A stretch of 64,000 nt of DNA from Cycloclasticus sp. (GTDB lineage Bacteria; Pseudomonadota; Gammaproteobacteria; Methylococcales; Cycloclasticaceae): assembly GCA_040743155.1 (NCBI GenBank), contig JBFLJU010000001.1:1857144-1921143 (forward strand). Direction: 5' to 3'. Shown here piece after piece: positions 6,236 through 13,594 of this stretch. Every line of letters starts with the position of its first letter. The stretch's first letter is position 1. The translations under genes were made by a program, and so were the position numbers. Below the pieces are notes generated by a model. The model had not been told where the DNA came from. It did no database searches and saw nothing but the letters and a program-made list of their open reading frames with translations.

Positions 6236-7402
6236 ATGCACCACCACATTATGCCAACCTACGCATCCTTACCTGTTCGCTTTGTTAAAGGCGAAGGTGC
6301 ATGGCTTTGGGACGACAAAGGCAACAAGTACCTTGACGCGTTATCCGGCATCGCCGTTTGTGGTTTAGGTCACGCGCACCCAGAAATAGCCGCTGCTATT
6401 AGCGAACAGGCTAATACCTTAATGCACACCTCAAACCTTTACTACATTGAGAAACAAGAGAAACTAGCCGACAAGCTTTGCGAACTAACCGGCATGAACG
6501 ATGTGTTTTTTAGCAATTCCGGCGCTGAGGCTAATGAGGCCGCGATCAAAGTCGCACGTCGCTTTGCCCACGCTAAAGGCATACAAAATCCTATCATCGT
6601 CACCATGAATGATAGCTTCCACGGTCGAACACTAGCCACCTTAACGGCCACAGGCAACCCAAAAGTTAAAGAAGGCTTTGCACCACTTCCTGACGGTTTT
6701 TGTCATATTCCATACGACGACGTTAGCGCGCTAGAGACACTGGCTAAACAGCATGCCAATATCGTTGCCGTACTGGTCGAGCCCATCCAAGGCGAAAGCG
6801 GTATTAATATTCCCGCAACTGATTACCTGAATAAACTGCGTGATATTTGCGATAAAAATGACTGGTTGCTCATGCTGGATGAAATCCAAACCGGTGTTGG
6901 CCGCACCGGCAGCTTTTTAGCCAGCCAACAAAACAACGTTACCGCAGACGTCGTTACAATGGCAAAAGCACTCGGCAATGGCGTACCGATTGGCGCTTGC
7001 CTAACCTCTAACAAGGCGACCGGCTTGCTAACCGCTGGGACGCATGGCTCTACTTTTGGCGGCAACCCATTAGCTTGCGCCGCTGCTCTGAAGGTTATAG
7101 AGATCGTAGAACGCGACCAACTCGCGCTACGCGCCGAACAACTCGGCAATAACATGGCTAATGCCTTCAAGGAAAAGTTACAATCTTGTGCGCACGTTGT
7201 TGAAATCAGGCAAAAAGGCCTAATGATCGGTATTGAATTATCAACGCCTTGCAGCGAGCTTGTGAGCAAGGCTTTAGAAAAAAACCTGCTAATCAACGTT
7301 GCCGGCGGTAACACGGTACGACTACTACCACCACTTACGATTAGCGACGATGAAGCCGCTAACATTACCGAGCTTGTTAGCGACTTAATTATTGCCCACT
7401 AA
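6236..7402 (+). CDS. argD: Acetylornithine aminotransferase
   Basis: Class III PLP-dependent aminotransferase that converts N-acetylglutamate semialdehyde to N-acetylornithine in arginine synthesis; homologues can also serve lysine synthesis. It opens [21 protein letters not shown], like other ArgD proteins, and has the [14 protein letters not shown] segment, [13 protein letters not shown], the [11 protein letters not shown] motif with the PLP-contacting Asp, the Schiff-base lysine in [13 protein letters not shown] near residue 245, and [13 protein letters not shown]. The 388-residue length is usual. argF follows within 25 bases, so the two form an arginine operon, probably governed by the promoter and hairpin just upstream. 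Confidence 0.96.
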
Positions 7403-7427: not shown

Positions 7428-8330
7428 ATGAAGCCACGCCACTTTATTACCCTAAACGACCTAAGCGCCGACGAGTTGCGCTCAATTATCCAGCGCGCTA
7501 TTGAGCTAAAGAAGATGCGAGCAGATGGCATTATTTATGAGCCGTTAAAAAATAAAGCTCTCGCGATGATTTTTGAAAAATCATCAACACGCACTCGAAT
7601 TTCTTTTGAGGCGGGGATGACTCATTTCGGCGGCAGTGCACTATTCTTATCACCTCGCGACACTCAACTGGGCAGAGGTGAGCCGATCGAAGATTCCGCA
7701 CGCGTTATTTCTCGAATGGTCGACGGCATCATGTTACGCACGAATGACCATGAGACCGTTAGCACTTTCGCAAAAAACTCCAGCGTACCCGTCATTAACG
7801 GCTTAACTGACCGTTTTCACCCTTGCCAGCTGCTGGCCGACCTACAAACTTGGTTTGAGCAACGTGGCGACATAAAAGGCAAACGCGTCTGCTGGATTGG
7901 TGACGGAAATAATATGTGCCAATCTTACATGAATGCTGCAAAGCTACTCGATTTCAACCTAGCCATCGCTTGCCCTGTTGGCTATGAGCCAGAACAAGAA
8001 TTGCTAGCGGCCACAGCCAGCCACGTTGAGTTATTCCACGACCCTAAACTAGCGGCCAACAATGCCGACCTCGTGGTCACCGATGTTTGGGCCAGTATGG
8101 GTCAAGAAGAAGAACAAAAAATTCGTGAGCAGGACTTCGAGAATTTTCAAGTCAACTCGTCGCTTATGTCTGTTGCAAACCCCGACGCACTGTTCATGCA
8201 CTGCTTACCAGCGCATCGCGGTGAAGAGGTTAGCGCGGAAGTGCTCGATGGAAAACAAAGCGTTATTTGGGATGAAGCGGAAAATCGCTTACACGCCCAA
8301 AAAGCCCTATTAGAATTCTTAATGAAGTAA
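7428..8330 (+). CDS. argF: Ornithine carbamoyltransferase
   Basis: Forms citrulline from ornithine and carbamoyl phosphate. The carbamoyl-phosphate site [15 protein letters not shown], the [11 protein letters not shown] (HPxQ) motif and the ornithine-binding [12 protein letters not shown] are all present. Three in-frame starts are possible (TTG 7392, ATG 7422, ATG 7428). I chose 7428 ([12 protein letters not shown]) because the anabolic Pseudomonas-type enzyme begins in the same way and has about 300 residues. No clear ribosome site helps the choice. Close spacing to argD suggests translation from one mRNA. Confidence 0.95.
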
Positions 8331-9057: not shown

Positions 9058-10752
9058 ATGTCTGATAAAAAAAACGATAGTAGAAAATTTTCTTCTCAAG
9101 TAGTGGATGGTATGGAACGCGCGCCGAGCCGAGCGATGCTACATGCCGTTGGCTTTAATGATGCTGATTTCAAAAAACCTCAAGTGGGTGTAGCGTCCAC
9201 ATGGGCGATGGTAACACCGTGTAATATGCACATTAATGGCTTAGCCGATGACGCGGTTCAAGGCGTAAATGCTGCTGGCGGCAAAGGAGTTATTTTTAAT
9301 ACCATTACAATTTCTGATGGTATCTCAATGGGTACGGAAGGTATGAAGTACTCACTAACATCGCGCGAAGTCATTGCTGATTCGATTGAAACCGTTGTCG
9401 GCTGCCAAGGCTTTGACGGCGTTGTTGCCATCGGCGGCTGCGACAAAAATATGCCCGGCTGTATGATCGCCCTCGCACGCCTTAATCGCCCAGCTATTTT
9501 TGTATACGGCGGCACCATTCTGTCTGGCTGCCACAAACAGCGCAAGCTAGATGTTATCTCAGTATTTGAAGCGGTTGGCGCACGCGCAAACAACCTTATC
9601 GATGACGAAGAATTGCACGCCATTGAATCAAAGGCTATTCCAGGCGCCGGTTCTTGTGGCGGTATGTACACCGCTAACACCATGGCATCGGCGATTGAAG
9701 CGATGGGCATGAGTTTACCAAACAGCTCAGCTCAGGCGGCTATTTCTGCTGATAAGAAGAAAGATTGCGAGGACGCAGGTGAAGCCGTTCTAAAGCTATT
9801 GGAACTAGACATTAAACCGCGTGACATTATGACGCGCAAAGCCTTTGAAAACGCCATTACCGTTGTTATCGCTCTAGGCGGGTCGACTAACGCCGTTCTA
9901 CATTTATTGGCCATGGCACACAGTGCCGACGTTGAACTAGAACTGAACGATTTCACCGAGATCGGCCAGCGCGTACCGATGGTTGCCGACTTGAAACCCA
10001 GTGGCAAATACTCCATGGGCGAGCTCATTGAAATTGGTGGCATTCAACCGCTTATGAAAATCCTCTTGGATGCAGGCTTACTGCACGGTGATTGCCTAAC
10101 CGTTACCGGCAAAACACTGGCGGAAAACTTAGCTGATGTAGCACCTTACCCAGATAACCAAGATGTTATTCGTTCGCTTGATAACGCCATTAAAAAAGAC
10201 AGTCATTTAGTGATATTACACGGCAATTTAGCAAAAGAAGGCTCTGTCGCGAAAATCACTGGCAAAGAAGGCCTCGGCTTTACAGGAACCGCGCGTGTCT
10301 TTGATTCTGAAGAAGAGTCGATGACGAGCATCCTCAATGGCTCCATTAAAGAAGGCGACGTGCTCGTTATTCGCTACGAAGGCCCAAAAGGCGGTCCTGG
10401 CATGAGAGAAATGTTGGCACCAACATCCGCTATTATGGGTCGCGGGCTTGGTGATAAAGTTGCTTTTATTACCGACGGTCGATTCTCTGGGGGAACACAC
10501 GGTTTTGTGGTTGGCCACATTACACCTGAGGCTTACCAAGGTGGCGCTATCGCAATTGTTGAAGACGGTGACACCATCACCATTGATAGTGTTAAAAATG
10601 AGTTACGACTCCATTTAGACGACGATGTCATTCAACAACGCCTTGCTAACTGGACTCGACCCGAGCCTCGTTACACACGTGGCGTTTTAGCAAAATATGC
10701 AAGATTAGTGAGCTCCGCCTCTGAAGGCGCTGTTACCGATAAAGTTGATTGA
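9058..10752 (+). CDS. ilvD: Dihydroxy-acid dehydratase
   Basis: Iron-sulfur dehydratase that makes 2-oxoisovalerate and 2-oxo-3-methylvalerate in valine and isoleucine synthesis. Cluster ligands are visible in [30 protein letters not shown] and [15 protein letters not shown]. The C-terminal part contains the active-site region [28 protein letters not shown] (quoted here as its two halves PTSAIMGRG and [11 protein letters not shown] for identification). At 564 residues it belongs to the shorter IlvD type. ilvE, which uses the products, is in the window at 25.6 kb on the other strand. argE follows after 53 bases. Confidence 0.96.
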
Positions 10753-10805: not shown

Positions 10806-11972
10806 TTGATCAAACCCCTTAACACTCTCGACATGATGCGTGCCTTAATCGGCACGCCATCAGTCAGCAGTACTAATGCGTCTTACGATCAAAGCAACCT
10901 AGCCGTTATTAACCTATTGGCTGATTGGTTAGAAAACATCGGATTTAAGGTCAGCATCGAGCCGCTTTCAGATCAAAGCGGGAAAGCCAACCTAATCGCC
11001 ACCATTGGCCCACAGTACAAGGGCGCTAACGGACTCGTTTTATCAGGCCACACCGATACAGTTCCCTATGATAATCGCCATTGGCAACAAGACCCCTTTA
11101 AACTAACCGAAAGAGATAATAATTTTTATGGCCTAGGCAGTACGGACATGAAATCATTCTTCGCGTTAGCTATTGAGGTAGCCACCCGGTTTAAAGCCAG
11201 CGACTTCAAACGGCCTTTAACCATACTGGCCACCGCCGATGAGGAAAGCGCCATGAGTGGCGCACAGGCGCTCGTTAAAGAACAATTTCAACACGCAAAG
11301 TACGCCATTATTGGCGAGCCCACAGGCTTAACGCCTATCCGTATGCACAAAGGCGTCATGATGGAGTCCTTGATCGTCACCGGGCATGCTGGGCATTCAA
11401 GCAACCCAAATTTAGGTGCCAGCGCCACCGAAGGAATGCATCAAATTATTAATGAGTTGCTGCGCTGGCGAGAAGAACTACAAAGAAAGCACCAAAACCC
11501 AGTCTTTGATGTTTCCTCACCGACGATGAATATTGGCTCCATTCACGGTGGCGACAACCCAAATAGAATTTGCTCTCATTGTGAAACACAAATAGATATA
11601 CGGCCACTCCCTGGCATGAGTATTGATTCATTACGTGCTGATTTGCAAAAACGCTTAAGTGCTGTGTTACCTGAAGAAAGCAAACTCAAGCTCGCCTACC
11701 GGCCCATTTTTTGTGGCGTTCCGCCGTTTGAAACAGCCGCCGATGCAAAACTCACGCAAATGATCGAACACATTACCGGCAAAGCCTCCGCAGCTGTCGC
11801 ATTTGGTACAGAAGCTCCCTACTTAAACAATCTCGGGCTCGACACCATCGTTATCGGCCCAGGCAATATTGATCAAGCACATCAGCCAAATGAATACATT
11901 CCCAGCAACCAAATTGAGCCATACTGCAACTTTCTGCAAAAATTAATACAAAAAATTTGCATTAATCAGTAA
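10806..11972 (+). CDS. argE: Acetylornithine deacetylase
   Basis: M20-family zinc hydrolase that releases ornithine from N-acetylornithine. The metal-site motifs are LSGHTDTVPYD, GLGSTDMKSFFAL, TADEESAMSGA (catalytic and ligand acidic residues), IGEPTGL and the C-terminal GPGNIDQAHQPNE. The dimerisation domain begins near GVMMESLIVTGHAGHSSNP. The only start that keeps the conserved N-terminus is TTG at 10806. It overlaps the stop of a seven-codon ORF (ATG 10786 to TGA 10807-10809) as TTGA, the same junction seen in the Gld-like operon, which suggests coupled translation. Length 388 is usual. Confidence 0.94.
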   Translation: MIKPLNTLDMMRALIGTPSVSSTNASYDQSNLAVINLLADWLENIGFKVSIEPLSDQSGKANLIATIGPQYKGANGLVLSGHTDTVPYDNRHWQQDPFKLTERDNNFYGLGSTDMKSFFALAIEVATRFKASDFKRPLTILATADEESAMSGAQALVKEQFQHAKYAIIGEPTGLTPIRMHKGVMMESLIVTGHAGHSSNPNLGASATEGMHQIINELLRWREELQRKHQNPVFDVSSPTMNIGSIHGGDNPNRICSHCETQIDIRPLPGMSIDSLRADLQKRLSAVLPEESKLKLAYRPIFCGVPPFETAADAKLTQMIEHITGKASAAVAFGTEAPYLNNLGLDTIVIGPGNIDQAHQPNEYIPSNQIEPYCNFLQKLIQKICINQ

Positions 11973-11995
11973 ATATTCATAGTATTGCAACAATT

Positions 11996-12032
11996 ATTAG
12001 TTTCTTTGCGTTTTACGCAAATAAAGACTAAT
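11996..12032. promoter_or_regulatory. Nested dyad operator overlapping the argA promoter
   Basis: Two nested inverted repeats share one centre: TTTGCGT (12005-12011) with ACGCAAA (12015-12021) around TTT, and ATTAGT (11996-12001) with ACTAAT (12027-12032) outside. A sigma70-like promoter lies on top: TTGCGT at 12006-12011, a 17-base spacer, and TAATAT at 12029-12034. A protein bound here would block transcription. The downstream gene encodes its own HTH domain, so autoregulation is the natural inference. Confidence 0.65.
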
Positions 12033-12040
12033 ATTTACGC

Positions 12041-13594
12041 ATGCTAAATGATGCAAATTTTATTATCCAACAATTTGGTGGCGTCAAACGACTCGCCAAT
12101 GCCATCAATAAAGACCCTGCTACCGTTTATCGCTGGACATACCCTAAAAGCAAAAATGGCACTGGCGGACTGGTACCATCCTCTGCTTTAAAAAGCATAT
12201 ACGAAGCCGCGAAGTTGCTGGGTATCGCTCTTGATGAAGCTAAGGAACTTACATCACTTCCTCTTCCAACAGAGGAATTAACACACCCCCATCAATTTAT
12301 TAACTGGTTTAGAAGTACTGCGCCTTATATACACGCCCATCGCGGCAAGACGTTCGTTATAAACTTTAGCGGTGAAGCGGTCGATGACGCACTATTTCGC
12401 TCTTTGATTGAAGATTTTGCCTTACTAAATAGCCTCGGCATCCGTCTCATTCTTGTACATGGTATTCGCCCTCAGTTGGAAAAAAAACTCATCGACAATA
12501 AGCACCCTAGTCAAGTTTTTCAACATTTACGGGTGACCGACAAACCAACGCTTGAAATGGCAAAAGAAGCCTCGGGCACTGTTCGCACCAATATTGAAGC
12601 AAGGCTCTCCACCAGCTTAACTAACACCCCAATGTCTGGCTCGGGTATTCGCGTTGCCTCCGGAAACTTTATTGTTGCTAAACCACTCGGCATTATTGAT
12701 GGTGTTGATTACCAATTTACCGGTGAAGTGCGCCGAGTTGATGGCGAGACGATAGCCAACACTCTTGATTCTGGCCATATTATTCTAGTATCACCACTCG
12801 GATACTCACCCACTGGCGATGTTTTCAATCTTCGTAGCGAAGAAATAGCCACTGCTATTGCCACCACCATAAAGGCCGACAAACTTATTTTAATGACCGA
12901 ACGGACAGAGCTTCTAACTGACAAGAACAAGCTCATCCGTCAATTAACAACCGAGCAAGCACAAACTATTTTAGACACTACGGATGATCAGCAAGATGAC
13001 ACCTACCTGCATTTGCAAGAAGCCATTCGCGCCAGCAAACTGGGCGTAAAGCGCATCCATTTAATTAATCGAAAAATAAACGGTGGCCTACCATTAGAAC
13101 TGTTTACACGACAAGGCTCAGGGACGCTGATTAGTATTCAGCCGTTTGAGGATGCTCGCCCTGCTAATTTTAATGACATTCATGGCATCATTGAACTTAT
13201 TCGCCCGTTAGAAGCTCGTGGTTTACTCGCCTACCGTTCCGCTGAAACCATTGAGATGGATATTGAGCAGTTTCACGTTATTGAACAAGACGGCTTGATC
13301 ACTACCTGCGCCGCACTGTATCAGTACCCACACGAGTCAATGGGCGAGCTCGCTTGCGTTGCTGTTCATCCCAATTATCGTACCGGCGAACGTGGAGAAT
13401 ACCTATTAAGTATGATCGAAAAAAAGGCGCGTTCCGCAGGGCTTACTCAATTATTTGTACTCACCACACAAAGCAGCCACTGGTTTGCAGAAAAAGGTTT
13501 TCAGGCCGCAACACTTAACGATTTACCGAAACTAAAACGCGACCATTACAACCAAACTCGTCGCTCTAATGTGATGATCAAAAAGCTGTCCTAG
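12041..13594 (+). CDS. argA: N-acetylglutamate synthase with N-terminal HTH DNA-binding domain
   Basis: Makes N-acetylglutamate, the first step of arginine synthesis, and is 517 residues long against about 440 for the classic enzyme. Residues about 80-330 are the amino-acid-kinase domain that senses arginine (PYIHAHRGKTFVINFSGEAV, LNSLGIRLILVHGIRPQ). Residues about 375-517 are the GNAT acetyltransferase domain (LACVAVHPNYRTGERGEYLL, FAEKGFQAATL). The extra N-terminus, residues 1 to about 70, reads as a Cro/YdaS-like helix-turn-helix: QQFGGVKRLANAINKDPATV, then YRWTYPKSKNGTGGLVPSSA. No methionine occurs in frame between residue 1 and well inside the kinase domain. TTG codons inside the linker cannot be fully excluded as secondary starts. 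There is no ribosome site before ATG 12041, and the predicted transcription start coincides with it. Confidence 0.9.
   Translation: MLNDANFIIQQFGGVKRLANAINKDPATVYRWTYPKSKNGTGGLVPSSALKSIYEAAKLLGIALDEAKELTSLPLPTEELTHPHQFINWFRSTAPYIHAHRGKTFVINFSGEAVDDALFRSLIEDFALLNSLGIRLILVHGIRPQLEKKLIDNKHPSQVFQHLRVTDKPTLEMAKEASGTVRTNIEARLSTSLTNTPMSGSGIRVASGNFIVAKPLGIIDGVDYQFTGEVRRVDGETIANTLDSGHIILVSPLGYSPTGDVFNLRSEEIATAIATTIKADKLILMTERTELLTDKNKLIRQLTTEQAQTILDTTDDQQDDTYLHLQEAIRASKLGVKRIHLINRKINGGLPLELFTRQGSGTLISIQPFEDARPANFNDIHGIIELIRPLEARGLLAYRSAETIEMDIEQFHVIEQDGLITTCAALYQYPHESMGELACVAVHPNYRTGERGEYLLSMIEKKARSAGLTQLFVLTTQSSHWFAEKGFQAATLNDLPKLKRDHYNQTRRSNVMIKKLS

Follow-up and report, generated by a model that had tools for sequence, protein, structure and literature searches.

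The window analyzed here is a stretch of 64,000 nucleotides (64 kb) from a Cycloclasticus genome that forms one contig of 2.56 Mb. Within it, argA is the last of a gene run ordered argD-argF-SH3-ilvD-argE-argA, where the following genes are placed:

6236-7402, + strand: argD-type transaminase gene at the head of the run (TIGR00707, 475.1 bits against a cut-off of 410.05)
7428-8330, + strand: argF, ornithine carbamoyltransferase (the list of open reading frames gives an earlier TTG start at 7392)
9058-10752, + strand: ilvD, in the same run
10806-11972, + strand: argE, acetylornithine deacetylase, the upstream neighbor of argA (PRK05111, 524.3 bits against a cut-off of 460)
12041-13594, + strand: argA with a predicted N-terminal Cro-like helix-turn-helix (HTH), 517 aa, ATG start (open reading frame list and profile matches)

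The argE neighbor is shared widely, with an argE match upstream of argA in 16 of 17 loci; at L113 (G003:C31:1-5250), the interval from ilvD to the start of argA yielded no argE.

Inspection of the 517-aa reading frame reveals a protein that begins with MLNDANFIIQQFGGVKRLANAINKDPATVYRWTYPKSKNGTGG and that divides as follows:

12041-12235, + strand: predicted Cro-like HTH domain, residues 1-65 (NF046037 and P22_Cro matches below cut-off; AlphaFold2 pLDDT 92.4; top rows of Foldseek and VIA-align are Cro proteins)
12116-12133, + strand: third helix (PATVYR, residues 26-31), which presumably recognizes DNA (AlphaFold2 model)
12236-12286, + strand: flexible, variable linker, residues 66-82, 17 residues (pN/pS 0.79; 17% mean identity; pLDDT below 50)
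12287-13135, + strand: N-terminal helix and amino-acid-kinase domain, residues 83-365 (profile match and alignment; roles from PMC4490483)
13097-13126, + strand: arginine-site motif ELFTRQGSGT, residues 353-362 (motif definition from PMC4490483)
13136-13591, + strand: GNAT acetyltransferase domain, residues 366-517 (profile match and alignment)

Both ArgA equivalog models match residues 82-516 well above their cut-offs, PRK05279 at 608.6 bits (cut-off 344) and TIGR01890 at 544.5 bits (cut-off 202.85), and this frame is the sole full-length ArgA match in the genome. A second ArgA-like match, at 28% identity and confined to residues 83-364, is probably ArgB. The extension ahead of the enzyme therefore measures about 82 residues, made up of the folded part 1-65 and the variable linker 66-82. 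The initial annotation had read a Cro-type HTH in frame with ArgA at this position, and that reading is borne out.

Residues 79-516 align nearly end to end with the N-acetylglutamate synthase (NAGS) of N. gonorrhoeae (ngNAGS, PDB 2R8V; E 9e-89). The catalytic and substrate residues R399, E436, C439, R507 and S509, which correspond to ngNAGS R316, E353, C356, R425 and S427, are invariant in all 16 full-length ArgA proteins of the genus, and T475 stands in place of ngNAGS S392, the proposed general acid (PMC4490483). The arginine site is equally invariant (16/16), where K281, E353 and the ELFTRxGxGT segment correspond to K201, E270 and the ELFT loop of ngNAGS; the segment reads ELFTRQGSGT here, and the published motif is E-(L/I)-(F/M)-(T/S)-X-X-G-X-G-T (PMC4490483). 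Judged from these sequences, the fused protein is predicted to remain an N-acetylglutamate synthase. The proposal of the initial annotation that one protein joins an arginine-binding domain, an enzyme and an HTH likewise holds up, given the arginine-site and catalytic residues that are kept and the predicted fold of the N-terminus.

In classical ArgA, the amino-acid-kinase domain senses arginine and forms the hexamer, and PMC4490483 describes the N. gonorrhoeae hexamer as built with interlaced N-terminal helices about two-fold axes. Arginine moves this helix, such that the ring contracts by ~20 Å along its axis and widens by ~10 Å (PMC4490483). The HTH is joined through residues 66-82 directly before the helix equivalent to the one that arginine moves.

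To describe the fold of the N-terminal domain, an AlphaFold2 model was generated from 16 natural sequences, giving four helices (residues 5-12, 15-21, 26-31 and 47-60) at a pLDDT of 92.4. In a Foldseek search of the PDB, ranks 1-8 are filled entirely by Xfaso1 Cro, N15 Cro and a hybrid of Xfaso1 and Pfl6 (E 0.1-0.4, probability 0.97-1.00), with one N15 Cro entry among the top rows that includes operator DNA. VIA-align places P22 Cro (Z 6.9), N15 Cro (Z 6.6) and Xfaso1 Cro (Z 6.2) as its top three, where Z values under 8 lie below the clear level of the tool and are not decisive alone, just as the best Foldseek E is only 0.1. A sequence search of the PDB with the N-terminal profile returned two weak rows only (E 0.44 and 0.66), neither of them Cro. 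Profile matches point the same way as the structures: the NCBIfam carph-isopro model NF046037 matches residues 8-65 with E 5.5e-9 and 36.1 bits when the N-terminus is searched alone, against a cut-off of 38 bits that is passed in 7 of 17 matching genus genomes. Weaker matches were returned by Pfam P22_Cro PF14549 (E 4e-5, 23.7 bits, below the gathering cut-off of 30.2) and YdaS_toxin (E 0.016, below cut-off). Because the P22_Cro score falls under its cut-off, the domain is termed Cro-like and is not assigned to that family. The fold scores alone are moderate, but a Cro-like HTH becomes very likely once the profile matches and the phage relatives described below are taken into account, and the structural comparison suggested by the initial annotation thus ends in matches to Cro structures. 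A full-length AlphaFold2 model (pTM 0.66) was used for linker disorder only, and its pLDDT drops below 50 over residues 66-88.

We then asked how far the extension has spread. Among 301 genomes of the order (E <= 1e-4), the extension profile matches 17 of 18 Cycloclasticus genomes and none of 283 others. Class-wide, 2 of 369 genomes match, both Cycloclasticus (E <= 1e-6), and phylum-wide 3 of 398 (E <= 1e-5), namely the genome under study and two others in which the match is a short open frame (160 and 85 aa). Examination of the 18 genus genomes together with 23 other order genomes gave full-length ArgA in 16 of the 18, and all 16 proteins, the present one included, carry the extension with their ATG at one conserved position. 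The 17th genome (G003) holds the first 49-50 residues of the extension at a contig end, and no ArgA match was found in the 18th (G010, 83% complete). Of eight relatives in named genome contigs, seven carry the extension and all seven are Cycloclasticus; a search of viral contigs for full-length ArgA gave no match. The carph-isopro domain occurs once per genome, always on ArgA, in the 17 extension-bearing genomes (E <= 0.001), and its matches elsewhere in the order are all below cut-off.

The extension also evolves as a protein domain. Within the extension, the 16 genus proteins differ in length at the linker only, and pN/pS, a rough ratio here since pS is near saturation, is 0.21 for residues 2-36 and 0.30 for residues 2-65, versus 0.79 for the linker and 0.23 and 0.22 for the enzyme domains. 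By this measure, the extension is under purifying selection about as strong as that on the enzyme. The extension and the enzyme also show correlated pairwise identities (Spearman 0.73, 120 non-independent pairs), as expected if both descended together. Such conservation indicates that the extension is almost certainly a translated, conserved domain. Within it, P26, A27, T28, Y30, R31 and W32 are invariant in 16 of 16 genus proteins, where the third helix is presumed, from Cro proteins, to read DNA.

Upstream of the ATG, inspection of the sequence reveals a candidate operator embedded in a candidate promoter:

12005-12021, no strand: predicted operator TTTGCG-TTTTA-CGCAAA, TTTGCGTTTTACGCAAA (perfect 7+3+7 dyad; conserved position; phage relatives)
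12006-12011, + strand: predicted -35 box TTGCGT, the left operator arm (promoter geometry)
12029-12034, + strand: predicted -10 box TAATAT, after a 17-bp spacer and ending 6 nt before the ATG (promoter geometry)

The dyad, whose presence upstream of argA had been noted in the initial annotation and is confirmed here, thus supplies the predicted -35 box with its left arm, and its right arm falls within the spacer. A protein bound over the -35 box and spacer of a sigma-70 promoter is expected to exclude RNA polymerase. The arrangement TTGCR(N)-16 to 18-TANNNT, with 5-8 nt between its end and the ATG, recurs in 14 of 16 genus members, and TANNNT falls in the allowed window in 15 of 16, against a mean of 7.5 and a maximum of 14 in 500 shuffles. 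A Shine-Dalgarno-like word precedes the argA ATG in none of the 16. Given this geometry and the missing Shine-Dalgarno-like word, the argA mRNA is probably leaderless, starting at about the ATG.

The dyad is conserved together with the extension. Of 16 genus members, 15 have it 26-36 bp ahead of argA: TGCR-N5/6-YGCA is placed at -33 to -36 in 13 of them, and the other two have it at -26. The extension-bearing contig end of G003 carries it as well. The left-arm TTGC is invariant in all 16 and is the sole invariant block between argE and the ATG. Variation is seen elsewhere in the motif: the dyad of L009 is imperfect (TGCG-TTTTT-AGCA), the R/Y position is unsymmetrical in seven loci (L004, L006, L008, L013, L014, L016 and L017), and L015 has a 6-bp spacer. 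The two dyads at -26, those of L013 and L014 (G005 and G013), lack the usual promoter spacing, and the promoter may be arranged differently there; the same two loci show extra TTGCG repeats upstream and a frame that stays open for 28 codons before the ATG. Among order-level argA genes without the extension, none of 14 examined (of 22 found) has the dyad upstream.

Within the window, no second site lies within three mismatches of TTTGCGTTTTACGCAAA. Across the genome, TTGCRN5YGCAA occurs at 33 sites, of which 32 lie inside ORFs (two in window ORFs and 30 in ORFs of at least 80 aa, where membership is mechanical and no proof of coding) and the remaining one is that of argA. A further 20 sites besides argA have two or three mismatches, 15 inside ORFs of at least 90 aa and five outside; none of these five (L186, L191, L195, L199 and L204) adjoins a recognized arg gene, with gene identity judged by eye. 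The strict form TTGCRW5YGCAA stands at the argA promoter in 14 of 17 extension-bearing genomes and accounts for 14 of its 37 places genus-wide. Of the 23 others, 20 of 21 examined are inside an ORF, L106 being the exception, and the remaining two (G011 and G006) are within ilvD, as judged by distance from argA. Such non-argA copies number 0-4 per genome, compared with 0-3 for reversed-pattern controls. The upstream of argG, located by what we take to be the argG start motif, carries the dyad in none of 17 loci (L238, without an argG start, was left out); the promoters of argB, argC, argH and carAB were covered by the genome-wide motif scan only. A general arginine regulon was rejected on the strength of the 32 ORF-internal sites and of argG. 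The suggestion in the initial annotation that the protein could repress arginine genes is thus not supported for these genes at large, and the idea of a trigger enzyme is well supported in a narrower form, as a predicted autorepressor of argA.

The relaxed motif is not confined to the promoter, since its form with a 6-bp spacer also matches the coding end of argE (-106 to -120) in 13 of the 16 genus members. Related words are frequent nearby: window positions 11921-11989 and their counterparts in relatives hold TGCAA-rich words, TTTGCRTWA and the 6-spacer dyad at the coding 3' end of argE, and TTGCR/YGCAA half-sites occur near -55 of argA in many genus members. Possibly these are auxiliary sites or, for those within argE, the result of coding constraint.

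Free-standing relatives of the domain in phages provide a comparison for the operator. Six records of a phage collection match the domain (best 46% identity, E 7e-9), two at proteins annotated as Cro or Cro-like; one of the six, H5, was left out of the homologue set. The discovery set comprised 28 free-standing homologues less six duplicates (L126, L127, L134, L141, L142 and L144), leaving 22, and was scanned from -150 to +10 of the match start for all 256 four-base half-sites at 10 spacers. TGCG-N5-CGCA emerged as joint top with the overlapping GCGA-N3-TCGC, each in 6 of 22 loci (16 of 22 lack TGCG-N5-CGCA), and the form found at argA, TTGC-N7-GCAA, in 4 of 22. In contrast, no dyad, of whatever half-site and spacing, exceeded 4 of 22 in 300 shuffles, and the relaxed pattern occurred in 10 of 325 tiles elsewhere in the discovery loci.

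A follow-up was performed with the pattern fixed beforehand, using a profile built from eight sequences: six dyad-bearing free-standing proteins, L129 (no dyad) and the domain of the window. Of 36 loci found, 16 were excluded as known, as lying on contigs already represented or as duplicates of a phage in the set, leaving 20 new ones, where 12 cluster with the known L122 and eight form new upstream clusters. TGCG-N5-CGCA is present in every one of the 20 new sequences and in each of the eight new clusters, and TTGC-N7-GCAA in 7 of 8 new clusters, versus a mean of 0.11 and a maximum of 2 in shuffles and 3 of 88 tiles. The upstreams share up to ~77% identity and the profile was built mostly from dyad-bearing proteins, so this support is strong but not fully independent. 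The same dyad before the genes of free-standing relatives argues, to that degree, that the operator belongs with the Cro-like domain.

The presumed recognition helix varies along with the site in part of the set. L117-L119 have a different helix and other dyads, as expected if the third helix reads the site. Other homologues, L123, L124 and L130 among them, have YRWTYPK yet no TGCG-N5-CGCA dyad, and L129 has the SRVYRWTYPK form seen in dyad-bearing proteins, yet no dyad. Ahead of V-Y/R-R-W, ArgA has A-T, compared with S/T/A/I-R in the dyad-bearing phage proteins. Some phage dyads adjoin a CI-like gene and may be CI sites. In L147-L150, L152 and L153 (IMG/VR), two TGCG-N5-CGCA dyads stand ~60 bp apart, near -84 and -24, which suggests a two-operator control region of the cI/cro type. 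L119 (PQ492659.1), the 39-kb genome of Limnohabitans phage DC33, is filed under Inoviridae, a family for which it is presumably too large; the record is probably misclassified.

The best copy of the matching site lies on the promoter of argA, and repression of this gene by its own product is therefore probable. We consider it likely that ArgA is an autorepressor with argA as its single target, whether or not arginine takes part, where DNA binding and repression are what we infer from domain and site. In the proposed mechanism, ArgA would have acquired a phage Cro-like repressor domain when Cycloclasticus arose or earlier. The fusion would bind one operator, TTTGCG-N5-CGCAAA, which overlaps the -35 box and spacer of the leaderless argA promoter, and would thereby repress argA. 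By homology, ArgA would form a hexamer with N-terminal helices paired about two-fold axes, such that two adjoining HTHs across an axis could read the two halves of the dyad. Arginine would move the helix and reshape the ring, probably tuning repression together with enzyme activity.

This last step and its direction are more weakly supported, and arginine control is plausible because the arginine site is intact and the HTH is attached to the helix that arginine moves. At its fullest, the captured phage Cro would make the hexameric ArgA ring the arginine repressor, with arginine re-spacing paired HTHs and gating the operator, a tentative reading to which we give nearly even chances. One allosteric site would then set both enzyme activity and argA transcription, partly replacing ArgR. 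In a special case of autorepression, repression would instead track the amount of ArgA as an arginine-independent homeostat, with arginine acting on activity only. The same HTH and operator evidence serves this arrangement, and a disordered linker of 17 residues could uncouple the HTH from ring movements; set against it are the retained arginine site and the attachment of the HTH directly before a helix that moves with arginine in N. gonorrhoeae NAGS (PMC4490483), and we regard it as possible but somewhat unlikely.

Autorepression as such would fail if the dyad served another regulator of argA while the HTH of ArgA were structural, vestigial or bound elsewhere. The two helix positions at which ArgA differs from dyad-bearing phage proteins would fit this, as would L129 with its phage-type helix and no such dyad. 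However, the dyad accompanies the extension in 15 of 16 cases and is found in 0 of 14 without it, the same half-site and spacing precede genes for the free-standing domain, and hardly any residue of the third helix varies, which together render a separate regulator improbable. Activation of argA by the fusion, or tethering of the enzyme to the locus, is very unlikely: an operator alone does not reveal whether control is positive or negative, but this one overlies the predicted -35 box and spacer, where a bound protein should keep RNA polymerase out. Finally, a downstream start (e.g., TTG 12215), with the extension an untranslated leader or chance ORF, agrees with the lack of a ribosome-binding site before ATG 12041 and with ArgA models that begin at residues 82-86, but is rejected as hardly credible by the ATG conserved in 16 of 16 at the predicted leaderless start, codon-level purifying selection, length changes that within the extension are confined to the linker, promoter geometry that sets the transcript start near this ATG, and a domain recognized by both profile and fold.

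Autorepression by ArgA would place the protein among trigger enzymes, or enzyme-repressors, such as PutA, BirA and NadR, which likewise unite, in one polypeptide, catalysis with DNA-binding control of the pathway that the enzyme serves, as predicted here. To our knowledge, none of these three is a feedback-inhibited NAGS. A further difference is that the DNA-binding part here resembles a phage Cro that was captured, and argA itself is the one target predicted for it. In comparison with P22, N15 and Xfaso1 Cro and the carph-isopro proteins, the predicted fold and profile match are alike, and TGCG-N5-CGCA is common to the phage relatives; those proteins are small and free-standing, whereas the domain studied here forms the N-terminal part of a biosynthetic enzyme. 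Classical bacterial ArgA, as in N. gonorrhoeae (2R8V), is the same enzyme with the same residues kept but has no DNA-binding domain. The NAGS forms set out in the available portion of PMC4490483 (bacteria-like, vertebrate-like or NAGS/K, OAT, S-, O-, H- or argH-fused, and C-NAGS) include none with an HTH. Titles and opening lines of abstracts in the open-licence PMC literature yielded no report of an HTH-NAGS fusion or of Cycloclasticus ArgA. An enzyme that is also a repressor is a known kind, and the HTH-ArgA combination and its apparent phage origin appear to be new.

The closest parallel in construction is BzdR, described in PMC3602430 as an HTH, a linker and a shikimate-kinase-like effector-binding domain whose ancestral enzyme activity was lost. 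Both proteins link an HTH to an enzyme-derived domain, but here the catalytic residues are kept, so that the ArgA fusion resembles the enzyme-HTH intermediate built artificially by the BzdR authors (PMC3602430). If the proposal is true, the fusion would provide a natural example of a biosynthetic enzyme under feedback inhibition that gained a DNA-binding domain while keeping its catalytic residues, the step postulated for the origin of regulators like BzdR, and possibly a ready-made arginine-sensor/repressor module. With an operator, a promoter, phage relatives and no detectable ArgR, the hypothesis is directly testable with a 17-bp probe.

The fold of ArgR is unrelated to the Cro-like HTH. 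The ArgA fusion would serve the same purpose as ArgR/AhrC (PF01316), control of arginine genes, with one predicted target where ArgR regulates many arg genes (PMC5343134). The ArgR DNA-binding domain PF01316 was matched in none of 41 order genomes, including none of the 29 that are at least 90% complete, versus 9 of 14 reference genomes used as a control. Given that it was detected in none of the 41, arginine control may be unusual across the whole order, and the fusion is a candidate answer to how entry into arginine synthesis is controlled in a group without detectable ArgR. ArgJ is encoded in all 18 genus genomes, although ArgE is encoded beside argA, and the cyclic and linear arginine routes both seem to be kept. 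ArgA may therefore mainly top up a cycle, which would ease its recruitment as a regulator.
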